From the NCBI RefSeq assembly GCF_025717065.2, contig NZ_JAOVZO020000019.1, positions 372,001 to 436,000 on the forward strand: a DNA stretch of 64,000 nt, read 5' to 3'. Shown here piece by piece: positions 6,932 through 36,684 of the stretch. Position 1 is the stretch's first letter, and the number at the start of each line of letters is the position of its first letter. The DNA comes from Tahibacter soli (lineage in GTDB: Bacteria; Pseudomonadota; Gammaproteobacteria; Xanthomonadales; Rhodanobacteraceae). The notes under the pieces were generated by a model. The model made no database searches. It saw nothing but the letters and a program-made list of their open reading frames with translations, and had not been told where the DNA came from. The position numbers and the translations under genes were made by a program.

Positions 6932-7151
6932 TGCGAGGCGGCGCGGGGGTAACGGCGCCGCCCGTCGGCACACGGATCGGCAAAGCGCGCGCCTACCATG
7001 CCTTGGCCAGACACCGGCGCAGGGAGCCGTGGTCGCCGCGGGGACAGCGATGCCTGCGAGCCGGAACTACGACCGGACTTGTCGTGCCGACGTCGCGCAA
7101 CGCTACTGCGGCGAGCATACCGATTCTCTCACCCGGCCCCGCGCACGCGTG

Positions 7152-19176: not shown

Positions 19177-19316
19177 CTGTCCGCGACGTTGAAGGATCGC
19201 CAGACACTTAACGATCGGCATCCGCCGGTCGCGGAGCGATGCCGCGGCCGGCGCGGCTTGGCCCCGCCCCGACGACGCACGAGCGCGGTGCACCTGCGAT
19301 CCCCGCGTCCGGAGAG

Positions 19317-19345
19317 TTGACTCGACAGGCGTCCCGGCGCATAGT
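19317..19345 (+). promoter_or_regulatory. marR promoter, probably giving a leaderless mRNA
   Basis: TTGACT (19317-19322, 5/6 to consensus), a 17-base spacer and CATAGT (19340-19345, 4/6). A start about 7 bases past the -10 falls on the marR ATG at 19352. No ribosome site precedes that ATG. Confidence 0.55.
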
Positions 19346-19359
19346 TGTCACATGCAACA
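19344..19359. promoter_or_regulatory. MarR operator site 1 (GTTG-N7-CAAC), over the marR start codon
   Basis: GTTGTCACATGCAACA spans the last base pairs of the -10 and the ATG of marR. The same pattern occurs at 19905-19920 before arsN1, with 13 of 16 bases identical. The shared symmetric half-sites at the two regulator-linked promoters suggest autoregulation plus control of the arsN1 unit. Confidence 0.6.
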
Positions 19360-19885
19360 AAAAGCCGCCACCCCTCGACGTCTTCCGGCGAACTCGTCCG
19401 GCGCCGCCGTGCTGGCCGATGCCGAGGCGCTGCATTCGGCCGTATCCGACCTCGTGCGGGTCTACCAGTTTCGCGATCGCGACAAGATCTGCTGCTACGA
19501 CATTTCGGTGACGCAGTGCTACGCCCTGGAAGCGCTCGCCGAGAAAGGGCCGATGCGCAGCCAGGCGCTGGCCGAACTGTTGCTGCTCGACAAGAGCACG
19601 ACCACGCGCGTGGTCGACGCGCTCGAGCGCAAAGGTTACGTCACGCGCAAGGCCGATGCGAGCGACGCGCGGGCGCTGTCGCTCGAGATCACGCGCGGCG
19701 GTCGCACGCTGTACGAAACCATCAATCGCGACCTGATCGCGCAGCAGGCGGAACTTCTGGCCGACCTCGATCCGGAAGTCCGCGCCGGCGTGACCGACGT
19801 GATCCGTCGCCTGGCCCGCGCGGCCGAAGCGCGTTTCGTCTCCGGCATCAGCGTCGGATCGTGCTCGCCGAAAGGCTGCGGCTGA
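19352..19885 (+). CDS. Cys-rich MarR family regulator, likely arsenic-responsive
   Basis: 177 residues. The winged helix is SQALAELLLLDKSTTTRVVDALERKGYVTRK with the wing DASDARALSLEITRGG. Five cysteines stand out: Cys47, Cys48 and Cys56 (DKICCYDISVTQCYALE) just before the DNA-binding domain, and Cys171 and Cys176 in the tail (GSCSPKGCG). Such clusters could bind a trivalent arsenical and release DNA. It precedes arsN1, a flavoprotein and an exporter on the same strand. Two matching palindromes, one over its own ATG and one before arsN1, mark the likely regulon. Sensing of arsenicals is inferred from context and cysteines. Confidence 0.85.
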   Translation: MQQKAATPRRLPANSSGAAVLADAEALHSAVSDLVRVYQFRDRDKICCYDISVTQCYALEALAEKGPMRSQALAELLLLDKSTTTRVVDALERKGYVTRKADASDARALSLEITRGGRTLYETINRDLIAQQAELLADLDPEVRAGVTDVIRRLARAAEARFVSGISVGSCSPKGCG

Positions 19886-19903
19886 CCCCTTTTTTGACCA
19901 CAT

Positions 19904-19920
19904 TGTTGTCACTACCAACA
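19904..19920. promoter_or_regulatory. MarR operator site 2 (TGTTG-N7-CAACA) at the arsN1 promoter
   Basis: A 5-bp-arm palindrome three bases before the arsN1 ATG, sharing GTTGTCAC and CAACA with site 1. TTGACC at 19894-19899 could be the -35; the -10 is weak. So arsN1 has its own promoter and a very short leader. Confidence 0.58.
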
Positions 19921-19922
19921 CT

Positions 19923-20468
19923 ATGACGCATCGAGCCGCCTTCCGCCCTGCCCGCGCCGACGACGCCGCGGCGATCACCGCGATCTACAACCAGGGCATC
20001 GCCGAGCGCGGCGCGACCTTCGAGACCGAGCCCCGGCGCGCAGCCGACATGGCCGCACGCATCGCCGACGACAGCTATCCGCTGCTGGTCGCCGTCGAAG
20101 ACGGCATCGTGCTGGGCTGGGCGAGCCTGAGCAGCTACCGCCCGCGCGCCTGTTACGCCGGCATCGCCGAGTTCTCGATCTACCTCGACGGTGCCGCGCG
20201 CGGCCGCGGCATCGGCCGAGGACTGCTCGAGGCGCTGGTCGACGCGGCGCGTGGCCGCGGCTGCTGGAAGCTCGTCTCGCGCGTCTTTCCGTCCAACGCC
20301 GCCAGTCGCGCGCTGTGCCGCGCCTGCGGTTTCCGCGAGGTCGGCGTCTACGAAAAGCACGGCCGGCTCGACGGCCGCTGGCTCGATGTCGTCATCGTCG
20401 AACGCCTGATTCCCGAGAACATTTCCCCCGACAACCCGGTCGCCGCCGCTGGCGACGCCGCCTACTGA
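19923..20468 (+). CDS. arsN1: GNAT acetyltransferase, ArsN1 type (arsinothricin resistance)
   Basis: 181 residues, single GNAT domain. It matches the ArsN1/phosphinothricin acetyltransferase pattern: AIYNQGIAERGATFETEPR near the N-terminus, then LGWASLSSYRPR, then CYAGIAEFSIYLDGAARGRGIG, where RGRGIG is the acetyl-CoA loop. SRVFPSNAASRALCRACGFREVGVYEKHGRLDGRW follows. ArsN1 acetylates the amine of arsinothricin, an organoarsenical glutamate mimic, which inactivates it. It is followed after 12 bases by the flavoprotein gene and lies in an ars island, which favours this over a bar/pat role against phosphinothricin. The substrate is inferred. Confidence 0.85.
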   Translation: MTHRAAFRPARADDAAAITAIYNQGIAERGATFETEPRRAADMAARIADDSYPLLVAVEDGIVLGWASLSSYRPRACYAGIAEFSIYLDGAARGRGIGRGLLEALVDAARGRGCWKLVSRVFPSNAASRALCRACGFREVGVYEKHGRLDGRWLDVVIVERLIPENISPDNPVAAAGDAAY

Positions 20469-20480
20469 AGCGAGGTTCGC

Positions 20481-22040
20481 ATGTCCACTGCATTGCCTGT
20501 CGTCATCATCGGCGCCGGTCCGGTCGGCTTGGCCGCGGCGGCTCACGTTCGTGCGCGCGGCTTCACGCCGCTGGTGCTGGAGGCCGGCGACGCCGTCGGC
20601 GCCGGCATGCGCCAATGGGCCCACGTGCGGATGTTCTCGCCGTGGGCATTCAACATCGATCGCAAATCGGCGGCGCTGCTCGCCGCGAACGGCTGGGAAG
20701 CGCCGGACCCGACGCATTTCCCCACCGGCGGCGAAGTCGTCGCGCACTATCTCGCGCCGCTTGCCGCGACGCCGGCGCTCGCGCCGCATATTCGCGTGAA
20801 CGCGCGCGTGCTCGGCGTCACCCGACGCGCACGCGACCGCATGAAGAACGCGCAGCGCGACACGACGCCGTTCGTCGTGCGCTATCTCGATCACGGCGAC
20901 GAGCGCGAAGTGCTCGCGTCGGCCGTGATCGACGCCTCCGGCACGATCGACTCGCCCAACCCGATCGGTGCGGCCGGCCTGCCGGCGATCGGCGAACGTG
21001 CCGCGCGAGAGCGCATCGCCTACGGCATGCCGGACGTGACCGGCGCGGCACGCGAACGCTATCGCGGCAAGCGCGTGCTCGTCGTCGGCAGCGGCCATTC
21101 GGCGTTCAACGTGCTGACGGATCTCGCGCGCCTGGTTCGCACCGAACCCGGTACCGAAGTGCATTGGGCCGTGCGCCGCCCGTCGCTGCGTCGCGTGCTC
21201 GGCGGCGGCGAGAACGACCAGCTCAAGGAGCGCGGCCGGCTCGGCCTGCGCATCGCCAGGCTCGTCGACGACGGCATCGTCGCGGTGCATACGAACGTCC
21301 ACATCGACCGCATTGCGACGACGGCCGAAGGGCTCGTGGCCCGGGACGGCGAAACGGCGTTGCCGCCGGTCGACGAGATCGTCGCCGCGACGGGCTTTCG
21401 CCCGGACCTGTCGATCCTCGACGAAGTGCGGCTCGATCTCGATCCCGGCACTCAGGCGCCAGCCGCGCTCGCGCCGCTGATCGATCCGAACCTGCACAGC
21501 TGCGGCACCGTGCGTCCGCATGGCGCCGTCGAGCTCAGGCAGCCCGACGCCGACCTGTACGTCGTCGGCATGAAGAGCTACGGCCGCGCACCGACGTTTC
21601 TGCTGATGACGGGCTACGAACAGGTGCGCTCGGTCGCCGCGGCGATCGCCGGCGACTGGGAGGCGGCACGACGCGTCGAACTGGTGCTGCCGGAAACCGG
21701 CGTGTGCAACACGCAGTTCGTCGACGACGAAAGCACGTCGGCCGGCTCCTGTGCGACGGGCTGTGGTACCGCGACGGTCGCGGCGACTGCCACGAGCAGT
21801 GCCAGTTGCGGCACCAGCACCGCCGGCTGCGGCACCGCGTCGGCGCTGGCGCCGGCGATCGTCGAGGCATCGGCCGGTTGTTGCGGCGGTCCGGCCGCGG
21901 CCGACGCCGACGCGTGCTGCGCCGACGATGCGAACGCCAAGGCGGCCGGCAAAAGCGGCTGCGGTTGTGAAGCGTCCGCGGTCGCCGTGCCCGAACCTGC
22001 GCCGGCAGTCGCGGCGGCGGCCAGCTGCTGCCGTCGCTGA
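20481..22040 (+). CDS. FAD-dependent NAD(P)-binding oxidoreductase with Cys-rich C-terminal tail (ars-associated)
   Basis: 519 residues. Two Rossmann motifs: GAGPVG at 11-16 for FAD and GSGHSA at 203-208 for NAD(P), the layout of flavin monooxygenases and thioredoxin-reductase-like enzymes. EIVAATGFRPDLSIL is the usual flavoprotein signature. The catalytic part ends near residue 400. The last 117 residues are low in complexity (Ala/Thr/Ser) and hold 13 cysteines, including CC pairs at 467-468, 479-480 and 516-517 and CGC at 494-496. Paired cysteines of this kind bind As(III) in ArsD-like proteins. The gene is ArsO-like by context. A role in oxidising or reducing an arsenical, with the tail as a metalloid trap or donor, is inference. 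Confidence 0.82.
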   Translation: MSTALPVVIIGAGPVGLAAAAHVRARGFTPLVLEAGDAVGAGMRQWAHVRMFSPWAFNIDRKSAALLAANGWEAPDPTHFPTGGEVVAHYLAPLAATPALAPHIRVNARVLGVTRRARDRMKNAQRDTTPFVVRYLDHGDEREVLASAVIDASGTIDSPNPIGAAGLPAIGERAARERIAYGMPDVTGAARERYRGKRVLVVGSGHSAFNVLTDLARLVRTEPGTEVHWAVRRPSLRRVLGGGENDQLKERGRLGLRIARLVDDGIVAVHTNVHIDRIATTAEGLVARDGETALPPVDEIVAATGFRPDLSILDEVRLDLDPGTQAPAALAPLIDPNLHSCGTVRPHGAVELRQPDADLYVVGMKSYGRAPTFLLMTGYEQVRSVAAAIAGDWEAARRVELVLPETGVCNTQFVDDESTSAGSCATGCGTATVAATATSSASCGTSTAGCGTASALAPAIVEASAGCCGGPAAADADACCADDANAKAAGKSGCGCEASAVAVPEPAPAVAAAASCCRR

Positions 22041-22049
22041 CGATCGGTC

Positions 22050-23222
22050 GTGCGCTGGCCCGTTCTCGTCGCGCTCGGCGGTACGCAATGCGTCTTCTGG
22101 GGCATTGTGTACTACGCGTTCTCGGTTCTTCTCGTACCGATGCGGACGGAATGGGCCGTGACCGACGCAGCGGTCGCCGGCGCTTTCTCCGTGGGCTTGG
22201 CCGTGAGCGCGGCGCTGGCGCCGCGCGTCGGCCGCGCGCTGGATCGAGGTCATGGCGTCGCGCTGCTTCGCGGTGGAGCGCTGGCCGGAGCCGCGCTGCT
22301 GGTCGCCTGGTCGTACGCATCGTCGGTGCTGGCGTTGTACGTCGTGTGGGCTGGCCTGGGCGTCTGCATGGCGGCGGTGCTGTACGAGAGCGTGTTCGCC
22401 CTCGTGGCGCGTGCCGTCATCGATCCGTCGTCGCGCCTGCGCGCGCTGGCGGGCATCACGATCCTCGGCGGCCTGGCGAGCACGCTCTTTTTGCCGCTCG
22501 TCGGATGGGGCGTGAGTGCGGTCGGCTGGCGTTCCACGCTGCAGGGATTGGTCGTGCTGTGGCTGATCGCCGCAGGGATCCAGGAACGATGGGCGCTGAG
22601 CGAGCTGACTGCCACGGCGCAACGGCCGTCGCCGCTGTCGATCGAACGATCGGCACTGCCGGCGACGCCCTGGCAGCTCGCCACGCCGTTCGTCGTCACG
22701 ACGTTTGCCGGCATGGCAGTCACGACCCTGGTCGTGCCGATGCTCGTCGCGCGCGGCTACGCAATCGAGCAGGCTGCGCTGGTACTGGCCGGTCTTGGCA
22801 TCATGCAGCTGCCGGGGCGCATCTGGATCGGCAGCGCCCGGCGTGCAGCCTCGGCGACGCAGCTGCTCCTGGTTCCGATCGTGCTGCAGGCGATCGGTAC
22901 GGCCGTGCTGAGCGTCGCGCCGTCGTTGAGCATCGCCTTCGTCGGCGTCGCGTTGTTCGGCGTCGGCGCCGGTCTCAGCACCGTTGCGCGACCGTGGGTG
23001 GTTCCGCTGCTCTACGGCAGCGCGAACGTCGGCCGGGTGAACGGGTCGATCGCGCGGGCGCAAGGCGTGGCGCGAGCCGCCGGCCCGTTGACCACTGCGG
23101 CGTTGGCGCAAGCGGCAGGCGCGTGGGCGGTCTTCGCCGGCGTGGCGCTCCTGGTAATGCTCACGTTGCCGGCCGCTCGGGCGACGGCACGCCGGGCGGC
23201 GCTGACGCGGACAGCCGCCTGA
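22050..23222 (+). CDS. MFS transporter in the ars island (candidate arsenical exporter)
   Basis: 390 residues with about 12 membrane segments, no signal peptide, and the MFS loop between helices 2 and 3 (RVGRALDRG). It resembles the oxalate/monocarboxylate-type MFS branch. It follows the flavoprotein by 9 bases from a GTG start (VRWPVLVALGG), so it is in the MarR-controlled unit. ArsJ is encoded separately, so this one may export a different species, such as acetylated or oxidised arsinothricin, As(III), or an organoarsenical (compare ArsK). Which one cannot be told from sequence. Confidence 0.82.
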   Translation: MRWPVLVALGGTQCVFWGIVYYAFSVLLVPMRTEWAVTDAAVAGAFSVGLAVSAALAPRVGRALDRGHGVALLRGGALAGAALLVAWSYASSVLALYVVWAGLGVCMAAVLYESVFALVARAVIDPSSRLRALAGITILGGLASTLFLPLVGWGVSAVGWRSTLQGLVVLWLIAAGIQERWALSELTATAQRPSPLSIERSALPATPWQLATPFVVTTFAGMAVTTLVVPMLVARGYAIEQAALVLAGLGIMQLPGRIWIGSARRAASATQLLLVPIVLQAIGTAVLSVAPSLSIAFVGVALFGVGAGLSTVARPWVVPLLYGSANVGRVNGSIARAQGVARAAGPLTTAALAQAAGAWAVFAGVALLVMLTLPAARATARRAALTRTAA

Positions 23223-23246
23223 TTCATCGTGAGACGAGCGTCATGC

Positions 23247-23275
23247 TTGCACTTATCCGTTGATTCCAGAATACT
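23247..23275 (+). promoter_or_regulatory. arsR promoter, probably leaderless
   Basis: TTGCAC (23247-23252), a 17-base spacer, and AATACT (23270-23275, 4/6 to consensus). The expected transcript start coincides with the arsR ATG at 23282, and no ribosome site is present. Confidence 0.42.
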
Positions 23276-23287
23276 CGAAATATGGAA
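23264..23287. promoter_or_regulatory. ArsR operator candidate over the arsR start codon
   Basis: An imperfect palindrome with outer arms TTCCA (23264-23268) and TGGAA (23283-23287) and the inner sequence ATACTCGAAATAT. The inner part resembles the TTCGAA/ATATTCGAA half-sites common in ars operators. It covers the -10 and the ATG, a good position for repression. Confidence 0.5.
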
Positions 23288-23641
23288 ACTAAAGCCGCAC
23301 TCAGAACACTCTCGGCCCTTGCGCAGGAAACGCGGTTGGCGATTTACCGCTATCTCGTGGAAGCCGGCCCGGCCGGCGCTTTCGCCGGCACCGTCGCCGA
23401 AGCGCTCGGCGTACCGTCGACGACGCTGTCGTTCCACTTCAAGGAGCTGAGCAACGCCGACCTGGTCGAGGGCCAGCAACAGGGCACGTATATCCGCTAC
23501 ACCGCCAAGCTCGACACGATCCAGGCGGTCGTGGGCTATCTGACGGAGACCTGCTGCGGCGGCAACCCCGAGATGTGCGCCCCTGTCGCGGTGCCGTTGC
23601 CGATGCCGGCCGTCAAGCGCAAGGCATCCCGACAGCAATGA
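23282..23641 (+). CDS. arsR: ArsR/SmtB family arsenic-responsive repressor
   Basis: 119 residues. Opens METKAALRTLSALAQETRLAIYRYL, the standard start of the family. The winged helix lies at about 35-75 (VAEALGVPSTTLSFHFKELSNADLVEGQQQGTYIRY). The arsenite site is C-terminal: Cys91, Cys92 and Cys99 (TETCCGGNPEMC), like the Acidithiobacillus ArsR type and unlike the E. coli type with its site in the DNA-recognition helix. It should lift repression of the downstream arsC, GAPDH and arsJ genes when As(III) binds. Its stop overlaps the next (broken) arsC start. Confidence 0.93.
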   Translation: METKAALRTLSALAQETRLAIYRYLVEAGPAGAFAGTVAEALGVPSTTLSFHFKELSNADLVEGQQQGTYIRYTAKLDTIQAVVGYLTETCCGGNPEMCAPVAVPLPMPAVKRKASRQQ

Positions 23642-23981
23642 GCGCCGTATCGCCGACGCCGCCGTTTCGCGTCCTGTTTCCGTGCACCGGCAACTCCGCA
23701 TGCAGCATCCCCCGTGAGGCCACGCCGCAGCACCCGGGCGTTGCGCGCTACGCGGCCTACGGCGCCGGTAGCCGGCCGGTCGCGTTCACCCCCAAGCGCT
23801 CGCGCAGCTGCAGACCCGCGGCATCGCGACGGAAAGTCTCACCAGCAAGTCGTGGAACGCTTTCCGCAACGCAGGGGCTCCCGAGATCGACGTCGTGATC
23901 ACCGTTTGCGACAACGCCGCGCAGGAGTCTTGTCCCGTCTTCTTCGGCGAATTCGCGCGCGCACCGGGGCCTGCACCGTAA
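23638..23981 (+). pseudogene. Disrupted arsenate reductase (arsC, LMW-phosphatase type)
   Basis: The reading starts inside the arsR stop (ATGA) and keeps VLFPCTGNSACSI, where the active-site loop CTGNSAR has lost its Arg to Cys. Near 23780-23792 the frame shifts: the second frame continues VHPQALAQLQTRGIATESLTSKSWNAF, then GAPEIDVVITVCDNAA, and stops at 23981, lacking the C-terminal third. The ancestral protein is clear, and the copy is dead by both a lost catalytic residue and a frameshift. The next gene is an intact paralogue that starts in its stop codon (TAATG). Confidence 0.8.
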
Positions 23982-24511
23982 TGTATTCGGAGACCGCCGT
24001 GGACCGTCCGTACCGCGTTCTGTACTTGTGCACCGGCAATTCGGCGCGAAGCATCCTTGCCGAAGTGCTGACCAATCGCTTCAGCCACGGCAAGTTCGAG
24101 GCCTACAGCGCCGGCAGCCGCCCGTGCGGTTTCGTCGACCCGTTCGTGCTCGATCTGCTGCGCGATCTGAAGCTGCCGGCGGAAGGGTTGCGCAGCAAGA
24201 GCTGGGACGAGTTCGCGCAGCCGGGCGCACCGCAGATGGATTTCATCGTGACCGTGTGCGACCGCGCCGCCGGCGAAGCATGCCCGGTCTGGCCGGGCCA
24301 TCCGCTGACCGCGCATTGGGGCGTGCCGGATCCCGCGGCTGCGACCGGGCCCGATGCGAGCCGACGCGAGACCTATCGCCGCGTCATGTACACCTTGCAA
24401 CACCGCATCACCTTGCTCACCGAACTCAACGTCACGTCGCTCGACCGTCTCGCATTGCGCACGCGGCTCGGCGAAATCGCGACGCAAGTCCCGCTCGACG
24501 ACGCGAGCTGA
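23981..24511 (+). CDS. arsC: Arsenate reductase, low-molecular-weight phosphatase (thioredoxin) type
   Basis: 176 residues. The CX5R loop is LCTGNSARS (Cys17, Arg23), and the second and third redox cysteines are Cys93 (VTVCDRAA) and Cys101 (EACPVWPG). SKSWDEF and HWGVPDPAA complete the family signature. It reduces arsenate to arsenite in the cytoplasm; the resulting As(III) is the ArsR inducer. ATG at 23981 overlaps the broken copy's stop, and a GTG eight codons on is an alternative. The C-terminus is about 20 residues longer than the usual ArsC. Confidence 0.92.
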   Translation: MYSETAVDRPYRVLYLCTGNSARSILAEVLTNRFSHGKFEAYSAGSRPCGFVDPFVLDLLRDLKLPAEGLRSKSWDEFAQPGAPQMDFIVTVCDRAAGEACPVWPGHPLTAHWGVPDPAAATGPDASRRETYRRVMYTLQHRITLLTELNVTSLDRLALRTRLGEIATQVPLDDAS

Positions 24512-24538
24512 TCGACTGCACCTTCTCGGACCCATGAA

Positions 24539-25546
24539 ATGACGATACGCGTAGGCATCAACGGCTTCGGGCGCATGGGACGCCTGACGTTGCGCGCAGG
24601 ATGGAACGATCCGTCGCTGCATTTCGTACAGATCAACGATCCCGCCGGCGACGCCGCAACCTTGGCGCATTTGCTCAACTTCGATTCGATCCACGGACGA
24701 TGGTCGGTGGAGGCGCGCGCCGACGGCGATGCCATTGTGATCGGCGACCAGCGCATTCCCGTCACGCGCAACAAGGCGATCGGCGATACCGACTGGTCGG
24801 CGTGCGATGTCGTCGTTGAAGCCTCGGGCAAGTTTCGCAAGACCGAGGTGCTGCGGCCGTATCTGGACCAGGGCGTCAAACGCGTCGTCGTGACAGCGCC
24901 GGTGAAGGAAGCCGGCGTGCTCGACTGTGTGGTCGGCGTCAATCACGACCGGTTCGATCCGGCGCAGCACCGCATCGTCACCGCGGCATCGTGCACGACG
25001 AACTGCTTCGCCCCGGTCGTCAAGGTGATTCACGAGAACCTCGGCATCCGCCACGGCAGTCTCACGACGATCCACAGCCTGACCAACACGCAGGTCATCG
25101 TCGACGCGCCGCACAAGGATCTGCGTCGCGCGCGTGCGTGCGGGTCGAGCCTGATCCCCACGTCGACCGGTTCGGCGACGGCGATCGCCGCGATCTTTCC
25201 CGAACTCAAGGGCCGCTTGAACGGCCATGCCGTGCGCGTGCCGTTGACGAATGCGTCGCTGACCGACTGCGTGTTCGAGGTCGAGCGGCCGACGACCGTG
25301 GAAGAAGTGAACGGTTTCCTGAAGGCGGCGTCGGAGAACGAACTCGCCGGCATCCTCGGCTACGAAGAACGGCCGCTGGTCTCGATCGACTACCGCGGCG
25401 ATCCGCGTTCGGGCATCGTCGACGCGCTCTCCACGATGGTCGTCAACGGCACTCACGTGAAGATCTACGCGTGGTACGACAACGAGTGGGGCTACGTGAA
25501 CCGCACCGCGGAACTCGTGCGCCTGGTCGGTGGCGCGGAGCGCTGA
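24539..25546 (+). CDS. Glyceraldehyde-3-phosphate dehydrogenase, ArsJ-associated
   Basis: 335 residues, full length. NAD site [10 protein letters not shown] at the start; catalytic Cys152 in [13 protein letters not shown]; substrate site SLTNTQ and [22 protein letters not shown]-terminal [12 protein letters not shown]. In ars operons this enzyme uses arsenate in place of phosphate to make 1-arseno-3-phosphoglycerate. The unstable product is exported by ArsJ, whose gene begins 3 bases later. The tight pairing is the evidence for the arsenic role; glycolysis alone would not need it here. Confidence 0.92.
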
Positions 25547-25549
25547 ACC

Positions 25550-26794
25550 ATGACCGCGCTGTCCGCCGACGTGCGCCAGTACGCCGCCATCACGGCGAAC
25601 TACTGGGCGTTCACGCTGACCGACGGCGCGCTGCGCATGCTCGTCGTGCTGCATTTTCACGCGCTCGGCTACAGCCCGCTCGAAGTCGCGATGCTATTCC
25701 TGTTCTACGAGATGTTCGGTGTCGTGACGAACCTCGTCGGCGGCTGGCTCGGCGCGCGGATCGGGCTCAATCGCACGATGAACATCGGGCTTGCGTTGCA
25801 GGTCGTCGCGCTCGCGATGCTGACGCTGCCCGCGGCCGCACTGACGGTGCCGTGGGTGATGAGTGCGCAGGCGCTGTCGGGCATCGCGAAGGATCTCAAC
25901 AAGATGAGCGCCAAGAGCAGCATCAAGCTGCTCGTGCCGGCCGATCAGCCGGGCGCGCTGTATCGCTGGGTCGCGGCATTGACGGGTTCAAAGAACGCAC
26001 TCAAGGGCGTCGGCTTCTTCCTCGGCGGCGCCCTGCTCGCGACGCTGGGTTTTACGCGGGCGATCGGCGCGATGGCGATCGCGCTTGCCGCCGTCTGGCT
26101 CGCGAGTCTCGTCGTCCTGCGTCGCGATCTCGGCAAGGCCAGGAACAAACCGAAGTTCCGCGACCTCGTTTCCAAGAGTCGGGCGATCAACCTGCTGTCG
26201 GCCGCGCGTCTGTTCCTCTTCGGCGCTCGCGACGTCTGGTTCGTCGTCGCGCTGCCGGTCTATCTCGCCGCCACGCTCGGCTGGAGCAACGCCGCAGTGG
26301 GCGCATTCCTGGCGGCCTGGATCATTGGCTACGGCATCGTGCAATCGCTCGCGCCGCATGTGACCGGCAAACGCAGCGGCAAGGTGCCCGACGGGCGCAA
26401 CGCGCTGGCGTGGGCGATCGCGCTGGCGGCGTCGCCGGCGCTGATTGCGTTGGCGCTCGGCGCCGGCTTTCCGGCGGCGACGGTCCTCGTGATCGGTCTC
26501 GCGCTCTTCGGTGTGTTGTTCGCGATCAACTCGTCGCTGCACAGCTACCTGATCGTGAGCTACGCCGCCGAAGACGGCGTCTCGCTCGACGTCGGTTTCT
26601 ACTACATGGCCAACGCGCTCGGGCGCCTGCTCGGAACGGTGCTGTCAGGGTGGGTGTTCCAGGTCTGGGGACTTGGCGCATGCCTCTGGATCTCGAGCGC
26701 GCTGGTCGCAATCGCCGCCGTCATTTCCGTCGCGTTGCCGCGGCACCGCGGAATGATTCCTCTGGATACGCCAGCCGCCGATACCGACGCCTGA
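25550..26794 (+). CDS. arsJ: ArsJ organoarsenical efflux permease (MFS)
   Basis: 414 residues with about 11-12 membrane segments. Distinctive ArsJ stretches are NYWAFTLTDGALRMLVVLHF at the N-terminus and LSGIAKDLNKMSAKSSIKLLVP near 115-135. It exports 1-arseno-3-phosphoglycerate, which then falls apart outside to arsenate and 3-phosphoglycerate. It follows the GAPDH gene by 3 bases and closes the ars operon. The gene ends convergently with the small unknown gene at 26947; no strong terminator is visible in the 150-base gap. Confidence 0.92.
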   Translation: MTALSADVRQYAAITANYWAFTLTDGALRMLVVLHFHALGYSPLEVAMLFLFYEMFGVVTNLVGGWLGARIGLNRTMNIGLALQVVALAMLTLPAAALTVPWVMSAQALSGIAKDLNKMSAKSSIKLLVPADQPGALYRWVAALTGSKNALKGVGFFLGGALLATLGFTRAIGAMAIALAAVWLASLVVLRRDLGKARNKPKFRDLVSKSRAINLLSAARLFLFGARDVWFVVALPVYLAATLGWSNAAVGAFLAAWIIGYGIVQSLAPHVTGKRSGKVPDGRNALAWAIALAASPALIALALGAGFPAATVLVIGLALFGVLFAINSSLHSYLIVSYAAEDGVSLDVGFYYMANALGRLLGTVLSGWVFQVWGLGACLWISSALVAIAAVISVALPRHRGMIPLDTPAADTDA

Positions 26795-28173: not shown

Positions 28174-31100
28174 GTGAACGATTCGCTCAAGAAGTACCGT
28201 GACGGATTCGTCAGGCTGCTGGCAGGCGCGCGCTACAAGCGCAAGCGCATCGAGGCGACCGAATCGCCGCTGCGCGCCGAGCTGTTCAGTGCCGAGCAAA
28301 TGGATGAGCACGGCCGCACGCTGGCGGCGTTTCACCGCGTGCAGGCCGGCCGCGGCCGCAATCGCCTGCTTGCGCGACTGGACGAAAACGAAATCGTCCT
28401 GATCGACACCTGCGCGCTGCTGTCGACGGCGATCCGCGAAAACCGGCGCGTGACGCCGGCCAGCGAATGGCTGCTGGACAACTACTACCTCATCGACGAA
28501 CACGTGCGCACTGCAAGGCTGCATTTTCCTAAAGGCTATAGTTTTCAATTGCCACGGCTGGCCAACGGCATGTCGGCGGGGCTGCCGCGCATCTACGACA
28601 TCGCGCTGAACGCGATCTCGCACGGCGACGGCCGCTTCGACCAGGATAGCCTGCATCGCTTCGTCGCGGCCTATCAGCGTACGGCGCCCCTGAGCCTGGG
28701 CGAGCTGTGGGCGATTCCGATCATGCTGCGCCTCGCGCTGATCGAAAACCTGCGCCGCGTGGCGAGCCGCGTCGCGCTGGACCGGCGCCATCGCAATCTC
28801 GCCGCCTACTGGGGCGAAAGCATGGCGGAGATCGCCGCCCACGATCCCAAGAGCCTGATCCTCGCCGTCGCCGACATGGCCCGCTCCGATCCGCCGGCCA
28901 GCAGTTCGTTCGTCGCCGAACTGATGCAGCGCCTGCAGAACCAGAGCGCCTCGCTCGCCGTACCCGTATCGTGGCTCGAGCAGCGTCTGGCGGAAGCCGG
29001 CGTCACGATCGAGCAGCTGGTGCAGTCGGAAAACCAGCAGCAGGCCGCCGACCAGATGTCGGTGAGCAACAGCATCGGCAGCCTGCGCCTGCTGTTGTCG
29101 ACCGACTGGCGCGGCTTCGTCGAAGGGCTAAGCCTGATCGAGACGACGCTGGCGACCGACCCGGCCGGCGTCTACGCGAACATGAGCTTCACCACGCGCG
29201 ACGCCTATCGCCACGTGGTCGAACGCATCGCGCGCAAGGCCGGGCGATCCGAAGCCGACGTCGCCGAGGCCGTGGTTGAACTGGCCGTCGAGGCCGCGCG
29301 CGACGAGGCCGCCGACGCCCCGCGCGCGCACGTCGGCTACTACTTGATCGATGCGGGCCTCGCAACGCTTGAACGTCGCTTCGGTCGGCGTGCGACGGTG
29401 CAGCGCATTGCGGTGCCGATCTATCTCGGCGCGATCGCGCTGCTGACCGCGGCGATCGCGGGCGTCGCGTTCCTGCTGCCGGGTCCGACGCCGCCGGCGT
29501 ATTGGGCGGCTCTCGTCGCGGCGCCGCTGGTGCTCGCGGCAAGCCAGCTCGCGCTGGTCGTCGTCAACTGGCTCGCCGCGTTCGTGATCGCACCGAAGAC
29601 GCTGCCGCGCATGGACTACGCGCTCGGCATTCCGGCCGAGGCGACGACGCTGGTCGTCGTGCCGACGCTGCTCGGCAGCGCGCAGGCCGCGCAGGAAGAA
29701 GTCGACGACCTGGAAATCCGCTATCTCGCCAATCGCGTCGACCATCTGCATTTCGCGCTGCTCGGCGACTACCCGGACGCCGCCGGCGAGCACGCGTCCA
29801 CCGACGAGCAAGTGCTGGCCGCCGCCGTTGCGGGCATCGAACGGCTCAACCGGCTGTACGCCGATGCCGGCGGGTCGCGCTTTTTCCTGCTGCACCGTCG
29901 GCGCCGCTGGAATGCGGGCGAAGGCGTCTGGATGGGCGAGGAACGCAAACGCGGCAAGCTCGGCGATCTCAACGCGCTGCTGCGCGACGGGACGGACACC
30001 CCTTTCGCGCGCATCGTCGGCGACCCGGCGCTACTGCGCACGGTCCGCTATGTGATCACGCTCGATGCCGACACGCGCCTGCCGCACGACGTCGCACACA
30101 AGCTGGTCGCCACGATGCGGCATCCGCTCAACCGCGCGCGCTTCGACGCCGCGCGCGGCCGCGTCGTATCGGGCTACGGCATCCTGCAGCCGCGCGTCGG
30201 CACCACGCTGCCGCTGGCCGGCGCGTCGGGCTACGCCATGCTGTTCGGCGGCGATCCCGGACTCGACCCGTATACGCGTGCCGTATCGGACGTCTACCAG
30301 GACCTGTTCGGCGAAGGCTCGTTCACCGGCAAGGGCATCTACGAAGTCGATGCCTTCGAGGACGCGCTGGCGCAACGCCTGCCCGCCAATCGCATTCTGA
30401 GCCACGACCTGCTCGAAGGCGGCTATGTCCGTGCGGGGCTGGTCAGCGACATTGCGGTTTTCGAGAATTTTCCACAGAGCTACCGTTCCGACATCAAGCG
30501 GCGCCATCGCTGGATTCGCGGCGACTGGCAGATAGCACGCTGGCTGCTCCCGCGCGTGCCGCGTGCCGACGCGGGCACCGAAAACAATCCGTTGTCGCCA
30601 TTGTCGCGCTGGAAGGTGCTGGACAATCTGCGCCGCAGTTTCGCCGCGCCCGCTCAGTTTCTGCTGTTCGTGCTCGGCTGGCTGTTGCTGCCGGCGGCGG
30701 CCGCGTGGACGGTTTTCGTGCTGCTGCTGACGCTGGCGCCGGTGCCGCTCGAAGCGATGTCGGCCGTCGTGCGCAAGCCGGCCGATTCACGTTGGCGCGC
30801 GCATCTGAGGTTCGTCGCGCGCGGCACGGGCGTACGCCTGGGCCAGGCAGCATTCGCTCTCGCGTGCCTGCCGTTCGAGGCGATGGTCGCGCTTGATGCG
30901 ATCGCACGGACGCTCTGGCGCCTGCACGTTTCGCAGCGCCGCCTGCTGGAGTGGACGCCGTCGAGCGTCGTGGAGCGCGGCGACGGCGGCCGCCTGTCGG
31001 GACTGCTGCGCGAGATGGCGTTCGCGCCGCTGGCGGCTATCGGCCTCGGCATCGCCCTTGCGCAATGGCAACCGGCCGCGCTCCTGCCGGCCTTGCCGAT

Positions 31101-34100
31101 TCTGCTGCTGTGGTTGATCGGCCCGCTCGTCGCCTGGCACGCAAGCCGCCCGAGAACGTCGGCGCAGGAAGGACTCGATCCCAAGCACGAGCCGCTGCTG
31201 CGCGACGCGGCCCGGCGCACCTGGCACTTCTTCGAGCGCCATGTCGGACCAGTCGACAACTGGCTGCCGCCGGACAACTACCAGCAGCAACCCGGCGACG
31301 TCGTCGCGCACCGCACTTCGCCGACCAACATCGGCCTGAGCCTGCTCGCGAGCCTCGCCGCGCACGACTTCGGCTACCTCTCGCTCGGCCGGCTGCTGCA
31401 GCGCACACGCGCCACGTTCGACAGCATGGACAAACTCGAGCGCTATCGCGGGCATCTGTTCAACTGGTACGACACGCGCACGCTCGCGCCGCTGAATCCG
31501 CGCTACGTGTCGATGGTCGACAGCGGCAATCTCGCCGGACACCTGCTGACCTTGCGGCAGGGCCTGCTGGCGCTGCGGCGCTACGTGCCGGCACAAGCGC
31601 GCATTCTCGACGGATTGTGCGACACGGCCGGCGTGCTGCACGCGCTGCTGCCGCCGCCGCTGCGCGCGCCGGCACAGCACTTCATGCACACGGCGAGCGC
31701 TGCGGAACTCAGACGGCGCGCCGGCGAGAGCGACCTTGCGGCCGACCTGACGCAACTGCTGGCGCTGGCGCAAGGGCTGCGCGACAACGCGCCCGACGAC
31801 GAGGCCGTCACCGCCTGGGCCCGGTCGCTGGTCGCGCAATGCGCCGATCACCTTGAAGAGGTGTCGCTTTTTTCAGCCAAGCCGGGCGCGTGCCTGGAAG
31901 ACATGGTCGCGGCGGGTTCGTCCGCGGCAACCGGCTGGCTCGGCGCGGCGCGCAAACTGGCCGAGCGCGCAGCCGCACTTGCCGTGCTCGACTACGAATT
32001 TCTGTACGACGCCAAGCGCGACCTGTTCAGCATCGGCTTCAACGTCAACGACCATCGCCGCGATTCGGGCTACTACGACCTGCTCGCGTCGGAGGTGCGC
32101 CTCGGCGTGTTCGTCGCGGTCGCGCAGGGCCAGGTGCCGCAGAAAGCCTGGTTCTCGCTCGGCCGACTGCTCACGCACGCGGGCGGCACGCCGGTGCTGC
32201 TGTCGTGGAGCGGCTCGATGTTCGAGTACCTGATGCCGAACCTCGTCATGCCGACCTATCCGCAATCGCTGCTCGCACACACCGCCGTCGCCGCCGTGGC
32301 GCGGCAGATCGCGTACGGGCGTGAGCGCGACGTGCCCTGGGGCGTGTCCGAGTGCGGCTATCACCTCACCGACGCCGCGCAGAACTACCAATACCGCGCG
32401 TTCGGCGTGCCGGGCCTGGGGCTCGAGCGCGGCCTGTCGAAGGAACTCGTCATCGCGCCCTACGCGAGCGCGCTGGCCTTGCTGGTGGCGCCGAATGCGG
32501 CGGCGGAGAATCTCGCGCGCCAGGCCGAACAGAACTGGCTTACGCCGTTCGGCTACTACGAAGCCGTGGACTACAGCGCCACGCGCATTCCGCCAGGCCA
32601 GCGCTGCGCGATCGTGCGATCGTTCATGGCGCACCACCAGGGCATGAGCCTCCTCGCGTTCGCGCACGTGCTGCTCGACCGTCCGATGCAGCGGCGCTTC
32701 GAAGCGGACCCGCAAGTGCAGTCTGCGTTGCTGCTGCTGCAGGAGCGCGTGCCGCGGGCCGCCGGCCAGCCCGCGAGCGATCCGCGACTGGTCGACGCGC
32801 GCAACGCCAGCGAGGCGCCGGCCGTTCCGCTGCGCGTGTTCAATCGTCCCGATCCGGCGACGCCGGCGGTGCAACTGCTGTCTAACGGGCGCTACCACGT
32901 CATGGTGACGAGTGCCGGCGGCGGCTACAGCCGCTGGCGCGACATCGCGCTGACGCGCTGGCGCGAAGATCCGACGCGCGACGCGTGGGGCAGTTTCTGC
33001 TATCTGCGCGATCTCGGCAGCGGGCGCGTCTGGTCGACAGCGTTCCAGCCCACGCTGCAGCCCGGCGAAGACTACGAAACCGTGTTCACCGAGGCGCGCG
33101 TGGAATTTCGCCGTCGTCTCGACGGCTGGGAGACGCATACCGAAATCGTCGTATCGCCCGAAGACGACATCGAGCTGCGCCGCACGCGCATCACCAACCG
33201 CGCCGCGGTCGCCCGCACGATCGAGGCAACCAGCTACGCCGAAGTGGTGCTCGCGCCGGCGATCAGCGACAGCTTGCATCCGGCGTTCAGCAACCTCTTC
33301 GTGCAGACCGAAATCGTCGCGGCGCGCGACGCGATCGTATGTTCGCGCCGGCCGCGCGACACGCACGACGCGCCGCCGTGGATGTTCCATCTGCTGGCCG
33401 TCCACGACGGCGACAGCGACGGCGTGTCGTTCGAAACCGACCGCGCGCGCTTCGTCGGGCGACGCCGGTCGAGCGCGCATCCGCGCGCGCTGGACCGCGA
33501 CGTCGCGCTGTCGGGTTCGCAAGGGTCGGTGCTCGATCCGATCGTCGCGATCCGGCATCGGATCACCGTGCAGCCCGAACAGACCGTCCACGTCGATCTC
33601 GTGACCGGCGTCGGCACGAGCCGCGAGAACTGCCTGCACCTGGTGGACAAGTATCACGACCGGCGCCTGGCCGATCGCGTGATCGACCTCGCCTGGACGC
33701 ACAGCCAGGTATCGCTGCGGCAGATCAACATCAGCGAAGCCGAGGCGCAGACCTATGCACGCCTGGCAGGCCGCATGCTGTACAGCCACGCTTCGCTGCG
33801 CGCCGACGCGCAGCTCGTGCTGCGAAATCGACGCGGCCAGCCGGGCCTATGGGCGTACGCGATCTCGGGCGATTTGCCGATCGTGCTGCTGCAGGTCAGC
33901 GGCAGCGACGACCTCGACCTCGCGCGCGACGCCGTGCAGGCGCACGCCTACTGGCGCCTCAAGGGCCTCGCCGCCGACCTCGTGATCTGGAACGAGGAAC
34001 GCGGCGGCTACCGACAGAACCTGCACGATGCGCTGATGGGCATGATCTCCGCGAGCGTCGATGCGAATCTGCTCGAGCGGCCGGGCGGCATCTTCGTGCG

Positions 34101-36684
34101 CGCGGCCGAGCAGATTCCTCACGAGGATCGCGTGCTGCTGCTCGCGGTCGCGCGCGTCGTGCTCAGCGACAAGAAAGGCAGCCTCGTCGAGCACCTGCAG
34201 CGGCGCGAGTCCGGCGAGCTCGCGATGCCGCGTCTGGTGCCCGTCGAGCCGCCGGCGCGCATCGCGAACGACGACGCGCCGGTCGCACGCGCGCCGCTGC
34301 GCCTGGACAACGGCCGCGGCGGATTCTCGCCGGACGGCAGCGAATACGTGATCGCGACGGGCCCGGGAACGTCGACGCCGGCGCCGTGGATCAACGTCAT
34401 CGCGAACGCCGAATTCGGCTGCCTCGTGTCGGAAAGCGGCGTCGGCTACAGCTGGCGCGAGAACGCGCACGAATACCGTCTCACGCCGTGGCAGAACGAT
34501 CCGGTCGGCGATACGGCGGGCGAAGCGTTCTACATCCGCGACGAGGAAAGCGGCCGCTACTGGTCGCCGTCGGCGCTGCCCTCACCCGGCAGCGAGCCGT
34601 ACGTGACGCGTCACGGCTTCGGCTACAGCGTGTTCGAGCATTGCGAAAACGGCATCCGCAGCGAACAGCGCATCTACGTCGCGCCCGACGCCGCGGTGAA
34701 ATTCGTCGTGCTGCGCCTGCGCAACGTCTCGGGCAGGCGCCGCGCGCTGTCGGCCACCGGCTACGTCGAATGGGTGCTGGGCGATCTCGCCTCGAAATCG
34801 GCGATGCACGTGGTCACCGAACTGGATCCGGGCAGCGGCGCGTTGCTCGCGCGCAATCCGTTCCATCCGGAGTTCGGCGAGTGGGTCGCGTTCTTCGACG
34901 TCGACGAAGCCGAACGCACGCTGAGCGGCGACCGCCTGGAATTCATCGGCCGCAACGGCAATCTGGCGCGCCCGGCGGCGATGGAGCGCACGCGGCTGTC
35001 CGGCCGCGTCGGCGCGCTCATGGATCCCTGCGGCGCGATCCAGATTCCGTTCGAACTCGAAGACGGGCAGTCGCGCGAAATCATCTTCCGCATCGGCTCG
35101 GCGGCGACGGCGGACGACGCGAGCGCGCTGATCAGGCGCCACCGCAGGCCCGGTTCCGCACGCGCGGCGCTCGATGCCGTGCGCGCGCAATGGACGGGCC
35201 TGCTCGGCACGATCGAACTCGACACGCCGGACGAAGCGCTCAACGCGCTCGGCAACGGCTGGCTGCTGTACCAGGTGATCGCATGCCGGCTGTGGGGACG
35301 CAGCGGCTACTACCAGTCCGGCGGCGCGTTCGGTTTTCGCGATCAGCTGCAGGACACGATGGCGCTGGTTCACGCCGCGCCCGAACTGCTGCGCGCGCAA
35401 TTGCTGCTCTGTGCACAGCGCCAGTTCAAGGAAGGCGACGTGCAGCACTGGTGGCATCCGCCGAGCGGCCGCGGCGTGCGCACGCGCTGCTCTGACGACT
35501 ATCTGTGGCTGCCGTTCGCCGCCTGCCGCTATGTCGCGTGCAGCGGCGACGCCGCCGTGCTCGACGTCGCGCTGCCGTTTCTCGACGGGCGCGCGCTGGC
35601 GCCGGGCGAGGAGTCGTACTACGACCTGCCGCTGCGCTGGGACGATCACCTGCCACTGTACGAGCATTGCGTGCGCGCGATCGAACACGGCCTGCGCCTG
35701 GGGCCGCACGGCCTGCCGCTGATCGGCAGCGGCGACTGGAACGACGGTATGAACAACGTCGGCAAGGGCGGCCGCGGCGAAAGCGTCTGGCTGGGTTTTT
35801 TCCTGTATCGCGTGCTGCTCGACTTCGCGCCGCTGGCACGGGCGCGCGGCGAAACGGCGTTCGCCGCGCGCTGCGAAACCGAAGCGGCGACGCTGCAGGC
35901 CAACCTGGAACGGCACGGTTGGGACGGCGCCTGGTACCGGCGCGCGTACTTCGACGACGGCACGCCGCTGGGCTCGGCCGGCAACGACGAATGCCGCATC
36001 GATGCGATCGCGCAAAGCTGGGCCGCGCTTTCGGGCGCGGCGCCGGACGAGCGCGTGCAGCGCGCGCTGGATGCGCTCAAGTCGCAGCTGGTGCGGCCGC
36101 GAGCGCGGCTGATCCAATTGCTTGACCCGCCGTTCGACCAGTCGCCGCTCGACCCGGGCTATATCCGCGGCTACGTCCCCGGCGTGCGCGAAAACGGCGG
36201 CCAATATACCCACGCGGCAATCTGGGCCGTGATGGCCTTCGTCGAGGCGGGACGCACGCGCGAGGCCTGGGAACTGTTCGACCTGATCAATCCGCTGCGC
36301 CACGCGCTGACGCCGGAAGATGTGGACACTTACAAAGTGGAACCCTATGTGGCTGCCGCCGACGTCTACGCGGTGGACCCGCATGCCGGGCGCGGCGGCT
36401 GGACTTGGTACACCGGATCGGCCGGCTGGATGTACCGCCTGATCGTCGAGTCGCTACTGGGACTGCGCCGCGAAGGCGAATGCCTGCATATCGATCCGCG
36501 CCTGCCGCCGCACTGGCCGGGTTTCCGTTTCAACTACCGGGCCGGCGCGACCGTCTATCGGTGCCACGTCCGCGTCGCGGCCGACGGCGAGGTACCGACG
36601 GTGCCCGCCACGCTGGCGCTGATCGACGACGGCGGTGATCACGCCCGGGAGTTCGTCGTCGCGCGCCAATCGGCTCATTCGTGA
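28174..36684 (+). CDS. ndvB: Cyclic beta-1,2-glucan synthase (NdvB/ChvB)
   Basis: 2,836 residues, the usual giant size. It builds cyclic beta-1,2-glucan at the inner membrane for the periplasm, where it serves osmoadaptation and host interaction. Order seen: N-terminal region; membrane pair near 410-470; family-84 glycosyltransferase domain with TLDADTR (Asp631/Asp633) and RRHRW (776-780); more membrane segments to about 1,000; a middle glycoamylase/cyclisation domain (about 1,010-1,500); two sugar-binding beta domains; and a C-terminal GH94 phosphorylase domain with GDWNDGMN near 2,520. The GTG at 28174 has AAGGA 5 bases upstream. Downstream come a BON protein and a Crp/Fnr regulator. Confidence 0.95.
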   Translation: MNDSLKKYRDGFVRLLAGARYKRKRIEATESPLRAELFSAEQMDEHGRTLAAFHRVQAGRGRNRLLARLDENEIVLIDTCALLSTAIRENRRVTPASEWLLDNYYLIDEHVRTARLHFPKGYSFQLPRLANGMSAGLPRIYDIALNAISHGDGRFDQDSLHRFVAAYQRTAPLSLGELWAIPIMLRLALIENLRRVASRVALDRRHRNLAAYWGESMAEIAAHDPKSLILAVADMARSDPPASSSFVAELMQRLQNQSASLAVPVSWLEQRLAEAGVTIEQLVQSENQQQAADQMSVSNSIGSLRLLLSTDWRGFVEGLSLIETTLATDPAGVYANMSFTTRDAYRHVVERIARKAGRSEADVAEAVVELAVEAARDEAADAPRAHVGYYLIDAGLATLERRFGRRATVQRIAVPIYLGAIALLTAAIAGVAFLLPGPTPPAYWAALVAAPLVLAASQLALVVVNWLAAFVIAPKTLPRMDYALGIPAEATTLVVVPTLLGSAQAAQEEVDDLEIRYLANRVDHLHFALLGDYPDAAGEHASTDEQVLAAAVAGIERLNRLYADAGGSRFFLLHRRRRWNAGEGVWMGEERKRGKLGDLNALLRDGTDTPFARIVGDPALLRTVRYVITLDADTRLPHDVAHKLVATMRHPLNRARFDAARGRVVSGYGILQPRVGTTLPLAGASGYAMLFGGDPGLDPYTRAVSDVYQDLFGEGSFTGKGIYEVDAFEDALAQRLPANRILSHDLLEGGYVRAGLVSDIAVFENFPQSYRSDIKRRHRWIRGDWQIARWLLPRVPRADAGTENNPLSPLSRWKVLDNLRRSFAAPAQFLLFVLGWLLLPAAAAWTVFVLLLTLAPVPLEAMSAVVRKPADSRWRAHLRFVARGTGVRLGQAAFALACLPFEAMVALDAIARTLWRLHVSQRRLLEWTPSSVVERGDGGRLSGLLREMAFAPLAAIGLGIALAQWQPAALLPALPILLLWLIGPLVAWHASRPRTSAQEGLDPKHEPLLRDAARRTWHFFERHVGPVDNWLPPDNYQQQPGDVVAHRTSPTNIGLSLLASLAAHDFGYLSLGRLLQRTRATFDSMDKLERYRGHLFNWYDTRTLAPLNPRYVSMVDSGNLAGHLLTLRQGLLALRRYVPAQARILDGLCDTAGVLHALLPPPLRAPAQHFMHTASAAELRRRAGESDLAADLTQLLALAQGLRDNAPDDEAVTAWARSLVAQCADHLEEVSLFSAKPGACLEDMVAAGSSAATGWLGAARKLAERAAALAVLDYEFLYDAKRDLFSIGFNVNDHRRDSGYYDLLASEVRLGVFVAVAQGQVPQKAWFSLGRLLTHAGGTPVLLSWSGSMFEYLMPNLVMPTYPQSLLAHTAVAAVARQIAYGRERDVPWGVSECGYHLTDAAQNYQYRAFGVPGLGLERGLSKELVIAPYASALALLVAPNAAAENLARQAEQNWLTPFGYYEAVDYSATRIPPGQRCAIVRSFMAHHQGMSLLAFAHVLLDRPMQRRFEADPQVQSALLLLQERVPRAAGQPASDPRLVDARNASEAPAVPLRVFNRPDPATPAVQLLSNGRYHVMVTSAGGGYSRWRDIALTRWREDPTRDAWGSFCYLRDLGSGRVWSTAFQPTLQPGEDYETVFTEARVEFRRRLDGWETHTEIVVSPEDDIELRRTRITNRAAVARTIEATSYAEVVLAPAISDSLHPAFSNLFVQTEIVAARDAIVCSRRPRDTHDAPPWMFHLLAVHDGDSDGVSFETDRARFVGRRRSSAHPRALDRDVALSGSQGSVLDPIVAIRHRITVQPEQTVHVDLVTGVGTSRENCLHLVDKYHDRRLADRVIDLAWTHSQVSLRQINISEAEAQTYARLAGRMLYSHASLRADAQLVLRNRRGQPGLWAYAISGDLPIVLLQVSGSDDLDLARDAVQAHAYWRLKGLAADLVIWNEERGGYRQNLHDALMGMISASVDANLLERPGGIFVRAAEQIPHEDRVLLLAVARVVLSDKKGSLVEHLQRRESGELAMPRLVPVEPPARIANDDAPVARAPLRLDNGRGGFSPDGSEYVIATGPGTSTPAPWINVIANAEFGCLVSESGVGYSWRENAHEYRLTPWQNDPVGDTAGEAFYIRDEESGRYWSPSALPSPGSEPYVTRHGFGYSVFEHCENGIRSEQRIYVAPDAAVKFVVLRLRNVSGRRRALSATGYVEWVLGDLASKSAMHVVTELDPGSGALLARNPFHPEFGEWVAFFDVDEAERTLSGDRLEFIGRNGNLARPAAMERTRLSGRVGALMDPCGAIQIPFELEDGQSREIIFRIGSAATADDASALIRRHRRPGSARAALDAVRAQWTGLLGTIELDTPDEALNALGNGWLLYQVIACRLWGRSGYYQSGGAFGFRDQLQDTMALVHAAPELLRAQLLLCAQRQFKEGDVQHWWHPPSGRGVRTRCSDDYLWLPFAACRYVACSGDAAVLDVALPFLDGRALAPGEESYYDLPLRWDDHLPLYEHCVRAIEHGLRLGPHGLPLIGSGDWNDGMNNVGKGGRGESVWLGFFLYRVLLDFAPLARARGETAFAARCETEAATLQANLERHGWDGAWYRRAYFDDGTPLGSAGNDECRIDAIAQSWAALSGAAPDERVQRALDALKSQLVRPRARLIQLLDPPFDQSPLDPGYIRGYVPGVRENGGQYTHAAIWAVMAFVEAGRTREAWELFDLINPLRHALTPEDVDTYKVEPYVAAADVYAVDPHAGRGGWTWYTGSAGWMYRLIVESLLGLRREGECLHIDPRLPPHWPGFRFNYRAGATVYRCHVRVAADGEVPTVPATLALIDDGGDHAREFVVARQSAHS

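Follow-up and report, generated by a model that had tools for sequence, protein, structure and literature searches.

A putative MarR-switched ArsN1–ArsV-type arsenic unit beside an ArsR–ArsJ arsenate unit in Tahibacter soli

Flavin monooxygenases of the ArsV type have been described beside arsK or another transporter gene, an arrangement that gave us a lead rather than a test. In the accessible text of a review, arsV of Paracoccus sp. SY is presented as a methylarsenite oxidase gene, arsW as a methylarsenate exporter gene, and arsK of Ensifer adhaerens ST2 as a methylarsenite exporter gene (PMC10080717, citing Chen 2021). Here we compare with such systems an arsenic locus of Tahibacter soli, located in a 64,000-nucleotide stretch of contig NZ_JAOVZO020000019.1 (positions 372,001 to 436,000; hereafter the window, whose own numbering is used) from a genome of 6.65 Mb in 23 contigs. 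Eight tightly packed open reading frames were confirmed on the + strand at 19352–26794, in the order marR, arsN1, a gene for a 519-aa flavoprotein, a gene for a 390-aa major facilitator superfamily (MFS) transporter, arsR, arsC, GAPDH and arsJ, and all eight lay where an earlier, sequence-only reading had placed them. We consider it probable that the locus consists of two independently switched arsenic operons placed head to tail, a MarR-run ArsN1–ArsV unit (unit 1) and an ArsR-run ArsC/GAPDH–ArsJ unit (unit 2). As judged from sequence, the enzymes look like known kinds; what looks new is the first regulator, together with the DNA site it would use.

The regulator of unit 1 (19352–19885, + strand) belongs to the MarR family (PF01047, 58.1 bits against a gathering score of 24.6) and reached no NCBIfam equivalog. 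Its Cys47, Cys48 and Cys56, within the motif I-C-C-x3-S-x2-Q-C, were present in all 28 aligned sequences, a set that includes the window and three repeats of loci found twice. The window has three copies of the palindrome GTTG-N7-CAAC (4702, 19344 and 19905), of which the second and third flank marR. The first putative operator (19344–19358) overlaps the marR start codon and the second (19905–19919) lies directly before arsN1; the sequence-only reading had listed neither. Both are conserved in related loci. Among 24 unique loci, counted apart from the window, the short-flank loci and the three repeats, 22 have the palindrome upstream of marR and 16 have it after marR, amounting to 43 sites in 8,640 bp beside marR compared to six in 381,819 bp elsewhere (~317-fold). 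By consensus match only, a sigma-70-like promoter of marR (TTGACT-17-CATAGT, 19317–19345, + strand) was the single promoter-like site in 19200–20000, where shuffled sequences averaged 0.1, and its first hexamer begins at 19317, the position at which the sequence-only reading had started the locus.

The neighbourhood of the flavoprotein gene was surveyed in two samples. In 299 genomes of the order, a threshold of E 1e-30 gave 14 flavoprotein loci in 12 genomes (flanks of only ~1.5 kb), and a profile scan of bacterial genomes gave at least 587 relatives, of which the best 80 were kept. The best-80 loci, six hand-picked plasmid loci and the order loci made up 100 loci searched by tblastn; three order loci repeat scan loci, so the counts are slightly duplicated. 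The full MarR–ArsN1–flavoprotein–MFS set was present in 10 of the 14 order loci (window included), with a marR relative upstream in all 14 and arsN1 and the MFS gene in 12 each. A regulator gene, sought on either strand within 1.3 kb upstream, was found in 88 of the 97 loci with at least 1 kb upstream: ArsR in 53, MarR in 28, PadR in seven. An ArsK-kind MFS gene followed in 62 of 86 surveyed loci. The sequence-only reading had made the arsenic identity of the first unit depend on co-occurrence of its flavoprotein and MFS with ars genes, and the unit passed this check: where both flanks reached at least 3 kb, an ars-type gene (ArsR counted) was found at 65 of 66 loci, and an ars gene other than a regulator at 49. 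Both units are upheld as arsenic units.

The second gene (19923–20468, + strand) scored 224.3 bits against a cut-off of 170 for ArsN1 family A (NF040503), which agrees with the earlier assignment to arsinothricin; its product is a predicted arsinothricin N-acetyltransferase. On two Ensifer adhaerens plasmids (L112 and L113, 6993–7511), a GNAT gene precedes arsR–flavoprotein–arsK; that of L112 is nearest to ArsN1 family B but below its cut-off (137.7 of 210 bits).

The flavoprotein (20481–22040, + strand) falls in the FAD/NAD(P) (flavin adenine dinucleotide/nicotinamide adenine dinucleotide (phosphate)) oxidoreductase family PF13738 and reached no NCBIfam equivalog. It carries the two dinucleotide motifs expected of an FAD/NADPH-binding ArsV, GAGPVG (residues 11–16) and GSGHSA (203–208), and G11, G13, G16, G203 and G205 were invariant in the 72 aligned proteins, from which nine of the best 80 scan loci had been left out. 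Twelve of its 14 cysteines lie beyond residue 409, in a tail of approximately residues 410–519 (12 Cys in 110 residues, compared to a family median of six in 54). Cys341 and Cys409 were kept in 72 of 72 proteins, and 71 of these have a tail with a CC pair; Cys467 and Cys468 were kept in 70 and 71, Cys479 and Cys480 in 60 and 59, and Cys494 and Cys496 in 56 each. With this degree of conservation, the tail is a trait of the family. No other protein of the loci carried such a tail, all 73 matches (70 filtered and three variants) being the same flavoprotein.

Among the best-80 scan and order loci, the nearest flavoproteins were those of Tahibacter caeni and T. aquaticus (75–79% identity). The two E. 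adhaerens plasmids carry arsR–flavoprotein–arsK near aioR and near genes whose annotation, arsenate reductase (azurin), denotes arsenite oxidase. In strain E-60, the flavoprotein between arsR and arsK shares 48% identity with ours, tail included, and the adjoining ArsK scored 513 bits against a cut-off of 400. Like ArsV, the T. soli protein is encoded in an ars operon next to an MFS gene. Because of this synteny and the role given to ArsV in the review, its step is most likely the oxidation of methylarsenite, MAs(III), to methylarsenate, MAs(V), with export, as predicted by analogy. The sequence-only reading had left the flavoprotein and first MFS transporter without a step and had raised a new branch of arsenic chemistry or export. 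This branch is not needed, because the pair matches the reported arrangement of ArsV with ArsK or ArsW. Identity with ArsO was rejected (54.7 bits against a cut-off of 425 for NF040505; 27% partial identity), and a profile search of the genome found no ArsH over its cut-off.

Unit 2 is, by its gene content, a known arsenate/ArsJ module. The ArsR/SmtB regulator (23282–23641, + strand) narrowly missed the cut-off of NF033788 (53.5 against 55 bits) and has a CC-x6-C motif near its C-terminus (Cys91, Cys92, Cys99); a CC-x4-8-C motif was present in 34 of 54 ArsR proteins near flavoprotein genes and absent from 20. ArsC (23981–24511, + strand) exceeded the gathering score of PF01451 (LMWPc) and fell short of TIGR02691 (62.4 against 174.3 bits); with Cys17, Cys93 and Cys101, it is predicted to be a thioredoxin-type arsenate reductase of the low-molecular-weight phosphatase fold. 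The ArsJ-associated GAPDH (24539–25546, + strand; NF033735, 561.9 bits against 450) directly precedes ArsJ (25550–26794, + strand; NF033734, 615.6 bits against 400), the predicted 1-arseno-3-phosphoglycerate efflux permease. With both proteins over curated cut-offs and their genes adjacent, as in an ArsJ system, the earlier view that this pair would handle arsenate as 1-arseno-3-phosphoglycerate was supported. Consensus matching found no promoter for the ArsR unit.

The earlier reading had joined the two units into one island. Both parts hold as arsenic units; their fixed joining does not. GAPDH and ArsJ genes were found near 10 of 25 MarR loci (window included), on the same strand in four and on the opposite strand in six, and a single fixed two-unit island was rejected since the relative orientation varies. 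Four of the 66 other loci longer than 9 kb had ArsJ (these are not the 66 that qualified by flank length). The two units are thus modular: each has a regulator of its own, and they are often found together, in one orientation or the other. In T. aquaticus (genome G291), three MarR–ArsN1–flavoprotein–MFS copies (L132, L133 and L134) are each convergent with an ArsR–ArsC–GAPDH–ArsJ unit.

From the observed gene content, families, cysteines, DNA sites and neighbourhoods we infer the biochemical step of each protein, what the inducer is, and that control is by repression, not activation. In unit 1, the MarR repressor would occupy both GTTG-N7-CAAC copies near its gene, one at the marR promoter and one ahead of arsN1. 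Arsenite, As(III), or a trivalent organoarsenical would bind the thiols of Cys47, Cys48 and Cys56, and the repressor would leave, allowing ArsN1, the ArsV-type flavin monooxygenase and an ArsK/ArsW-like MFS pump to be made. ArsN1 would acetylate arsinothricin, and the flavoprotein would use NADPH and O2 to convert methylarsenite, perhaps also other trivalent organoarsenicals, to the pentavalent form, which is less toxic. The Cys tail of the enzyme would probably gather the arsenical, which the pump would export. In unit 2, the ArsR repressor would control ArsC, reducing arsenate, As(V), to As(III), and GAPDH–ArsJ, sending As(V) out as 1-arseno-3-phosphoglycerate.

Several points weigh against this picture. 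The palindrome count of the window is within chance (three seen, 0.7 expected, up to three in 100 simulations), and the exact palindrome is missing upstream of marR in two of the 24 loci and downstream in eight. What makes the palindromes of the window notable, in sequence terms, is placement and conservation rather than number. With the tblastn queries, nine of 97 loci showed no regulator and 24 of 86 no MFS gene, and the 65-of-66 count stands without a background rate from random stretches. There was no curated ArsV or ArsW model among the family matches, with the link to ArsV drawn by analogy from gene order in E. adhaerens strains that are not ST2, and the MFS transporter is far below the ArsK cut-off, with only 27% identity to the E. 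adhaerens MFS. No ArsM over its cut-off was found in the genome; methylarsenite would therefore have to come from neighbours. Finally, the arsinothricin operon of Burkholderia gladioli (arsQML) is As(III)-inducible, and the accessible text of its authors credits an ArsR; an arsR also lies beside the MarR gene of Pseudomonas amygdali.

The MFS transporter (22050–23222, + strand, GTG start) is a divergent relative of ArsK; it has a Pfam domain and reached no NCBIfam equivalog. ArsK was its best NCBIfam match (NF033733, 92.5 bits against a cut-off of 400), the transporters of eight other loci scored 102–242 bits and two E. adhaerens transporters 479 and 513. It shares 45–60% identity with the transporters of Lysobacterales MarR-type loci and gave no significant BLAST match to ArsJ. 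Both As(III)/MAs(III), as for ArsK, and MAs(V), as for ArsW, are possible substrates. Between arsR and the intact arsC lies a decayed arsC relic (23638–23963, + strand) that the sequence-only reading had missed, in two frames and with its C-terminal part gone. Among the arsC proteins compared, its best match was the one encoded between arsR and acr3 in T. caeni (L022), with 57% identity over 23638–23778 and 69% over 23772–23963. Because the relic best matches this acr3-side arsC, we suppose that an ancestral arsR–arsC–acr3–arsC–GAPDH–arsJ operon lost acr3. The relic, along with the absence of Acr3 and ArsB from the matches in the genome, suggests loss of the usual arsenite pump.

This loss brings in the strongest alternative, that the MFS transporter is an arsenite exporter that replaced Acr3, so that unit 1 serves the ArsC of unit 2. 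The lack of Acr3 and ArsB and the acr3-side match of the relic fit such a replacement, as does T. aquaticus, which has no Acr3 and three copies of unit 1 with the MFS gene. Against it, four genomes (G012, G046, G269 and G270) carry both MFS and Acr3, two (G003 and G052) show neither, and the transporter diverges from ArsK. MFS and Acr3 as strict alternatives were rejected on account of the four genomes with both pumps, and for the same reason we regard replacement as a possibility on the doubtful side.

A second alternative makes unit 1 a dedicated arsinothricin unit, in which the substrate re-oxidised by the flavoprotein would be not methylarsenite but arsinothricin or hydroxyarsinothricin in reduced, trivalent form, the MFS transporter would export arsinothricin or its acetylated form, and MarR would sense these compounds. 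It is encouraged by the distribution of arsN1, found near 22 of 28 MarR-type loci compared to three of 53 ArsR-type, four of seven PadR-type and two of nine loci without a regulator, and by plasmids. At E 1e-12, this MarR was present in four plasmid records, which also count in favour of the main reading. Each is an arsenic locus, each MarR has a CC-x7-C motif, and each marR has GTTG-N7-CAAC within ~150 bp upstream (119 bp in P. amygdali). On the P. nitroreducens plasmid, MarR stands with arsN1 and the flavoprotein gene. On Pseudomonas pXWY (L117), it is followed by an unannotated arsN1 (57% identity, full-length match) and an ArsO-like gene, and on a Deinococcus taeanensis plasmid it lies between ArsN1 and ArsN2, followed by an ArsO-like gene. 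MarR and arsN1 thus accompany an ArsO-like protein (40–42% identity to ArsO and 28–29% to our flavoprotein) instead of our flavoprotein on these two plasmids. In P. amygdali (L119, 4031–4528), the MarR relative adjoins arsQ–arsL–arsM of arsinothricin biosynthesis. Yet most flavoprotein relatives are accompanied by ArsR but not by arsN1, and trivalent arsinothricin as a cellular threat is itself supposed, so we judge a dedicated arsinothricin unit unlikely. As a separate observation, the arsN1-like frame after marR on pXWY (6506–6997) overlaps the end of the ArsO-like gene, which is on the other strand.

To follow the history of the regulators, we mapped them onto a rapidly built flavoprotein tree, for which 93 proteins were kept once short or truncated sequences and repeats had been set aside. 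The MarR label (24 rows) needed one change, with a branch support of 68, which rose to 95 when one ArsR row joined the set (25 rows). The PadR label (six rows) also needed one change (support 99), and the ArsR label (55 rows) ten; for all three labels, none of 500 shuffles gave as few changes. An exchange of regulators is thus probable. Perhaps MarR took the place of ArsR once, in Gamma- and Betaproteobacteria, as the tree would have it with weak branch support. The seven PadR relatives (L018, L074, L079, L082, L084, L089 and L097) stand in the place of ArsR before an ArsV-like gene; GCC is present in them, together with CxC or CC at the C-terminus. In the portions of the open literature examined, we found no report of a MarR-type arsenical sensor, and mentions of MarR there were to multidrug regulators, references or unrelated words.

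It is generally known that many MarR proteins use cysteines as a redox switch, and in a third alternative the T. soli protein might likewise answer oxidants or electrophiles, as OhrR/HypR-type proteins do, with the arsenic genes as one target among several. We find this improbable: two of the three GTTG-N7-CAAC palindromes in the 64-kb window flank marR, the four plasmid relatives sit in ars loci, and close homologues are rare, with only two of 369 sampled genomes of the class having one at E 1e-15, own genome included. Returning to the arsenical-sensing MarR, we offer a broader proposal tentatively, as a real but less than even prospect. MarR, and PadR in Roseomonas-type loci, may have independently become multi-thiol arsenical sensors and taken ArsV-type operons from ArsR. 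The MarR branch may be tuned to organoarsenical antibiotics, controlling resistance (arsN1 with arsV, or arsN1 with arsO) through GTTG-N7-CAAC, and may control arsinothricin production in P. amygdali.

The fold model of the flavoprotein had a good core (mean predicted local distance difference test score 83.6), with residues 421–467 and 497–519 unresolved, and resembled YpdA and flavin monooxygenases. A role like that of YpdA (bacillithiol disulfide reductase), in which a disulfide or arsenical reductase would maintain thiols or the Cys tail in reduced form, is very improbable, since for all the closeness of the YpdA structures, the best fold matches (template modelling score 0.83–0.85 by target), and the CC-rich tail, the Cys of the YpdA motif GGGPCG is replaced by Val or Ile in 72 of 72 proteins, on which ground a YpdA-type reductase was rejected, and the monooxygenase DfoA ranks next after three YpdA chains.

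If the proposal for MarR is true, no fewer than three families capable of carrying Cys pairs (ArsR, MarR and PadR) switch arsenic operons, a protein that is not an ArsR serves as a dedicated sensor of arsenic-containing antibiotics, and resistance to arsinothricin is governed by a separate switch whose DNA site can be recognised. Such a site would allow genome searches for regulons of organoarsenical antibiotics and possibly an arsinothricin or methylarsenite biosensor. The enzymes extend ArsV, ArsN1 and ArsJ to a new pairing and are otherwise as expected. Elsewhere in the window, two neighbouring serine beta-lactamase-family genes (PF00144, 16762–19176) lie just 5' of the arsenic units, and 28174–36684 encodes a 2836-aa protein with glycosyltransferase, glucoamylase and GH94 domains, which we take to be of the cyclic beta-1,2-glucan synthase kind.

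Compared to described systems, the flavoprotein shares with ArsO of the Streptomyces FR-008 plasmid, whose operon bears the name arsRBOCT, the same broad flavin monooxygenase superfamily; the FR-008 locus has both ArsO and a homologue of our flavoprotein. The remaining comparisons are drawn with the accessible text of the sources. GAPDH–ArsJ arsenate efflux (Chen 2016, cited in PMC6947025) is matched by two adjacent genes over their cut-offs, here beside an ArsV-type unit, with an arsC relic and no acr3. PpArsN1 of P. putida KT2440 (PMC6465285) is likewise encoded in an ars locus and matched by an ArsN1 family A protein over the curated cut-off, but arsN1 is here apparently under MarR control, with its own palindrome before the gene. 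The systems of ArsV with ArsW or ArsK (Paracoccus sp. SY and E. adhaerens ST2; PMC10080717, PMC11719878, PMC9144182) share a flavoprotein with FAD/NADPH motifs adjoining an ArsK-like MFS in an ars operon; the T. soli unit differs from them in having MarR in place of ArsR, an arsN1, a divergent MFS transporter and a longer Cys tail. In AfArsR of Acidithiobacillus, the As(III) site consists of three cysteines in a short stretch, NCCHGTRDCA, i.e. CC-x5-C (PMC11212059). Our ArsR (CC-x6-C) and our MarR (CC-x7-C) resemble it in this short-stretch arrangement, whereas MarR has another fold, and its cysteines precede the DNA-binding domain or stand where it begins.

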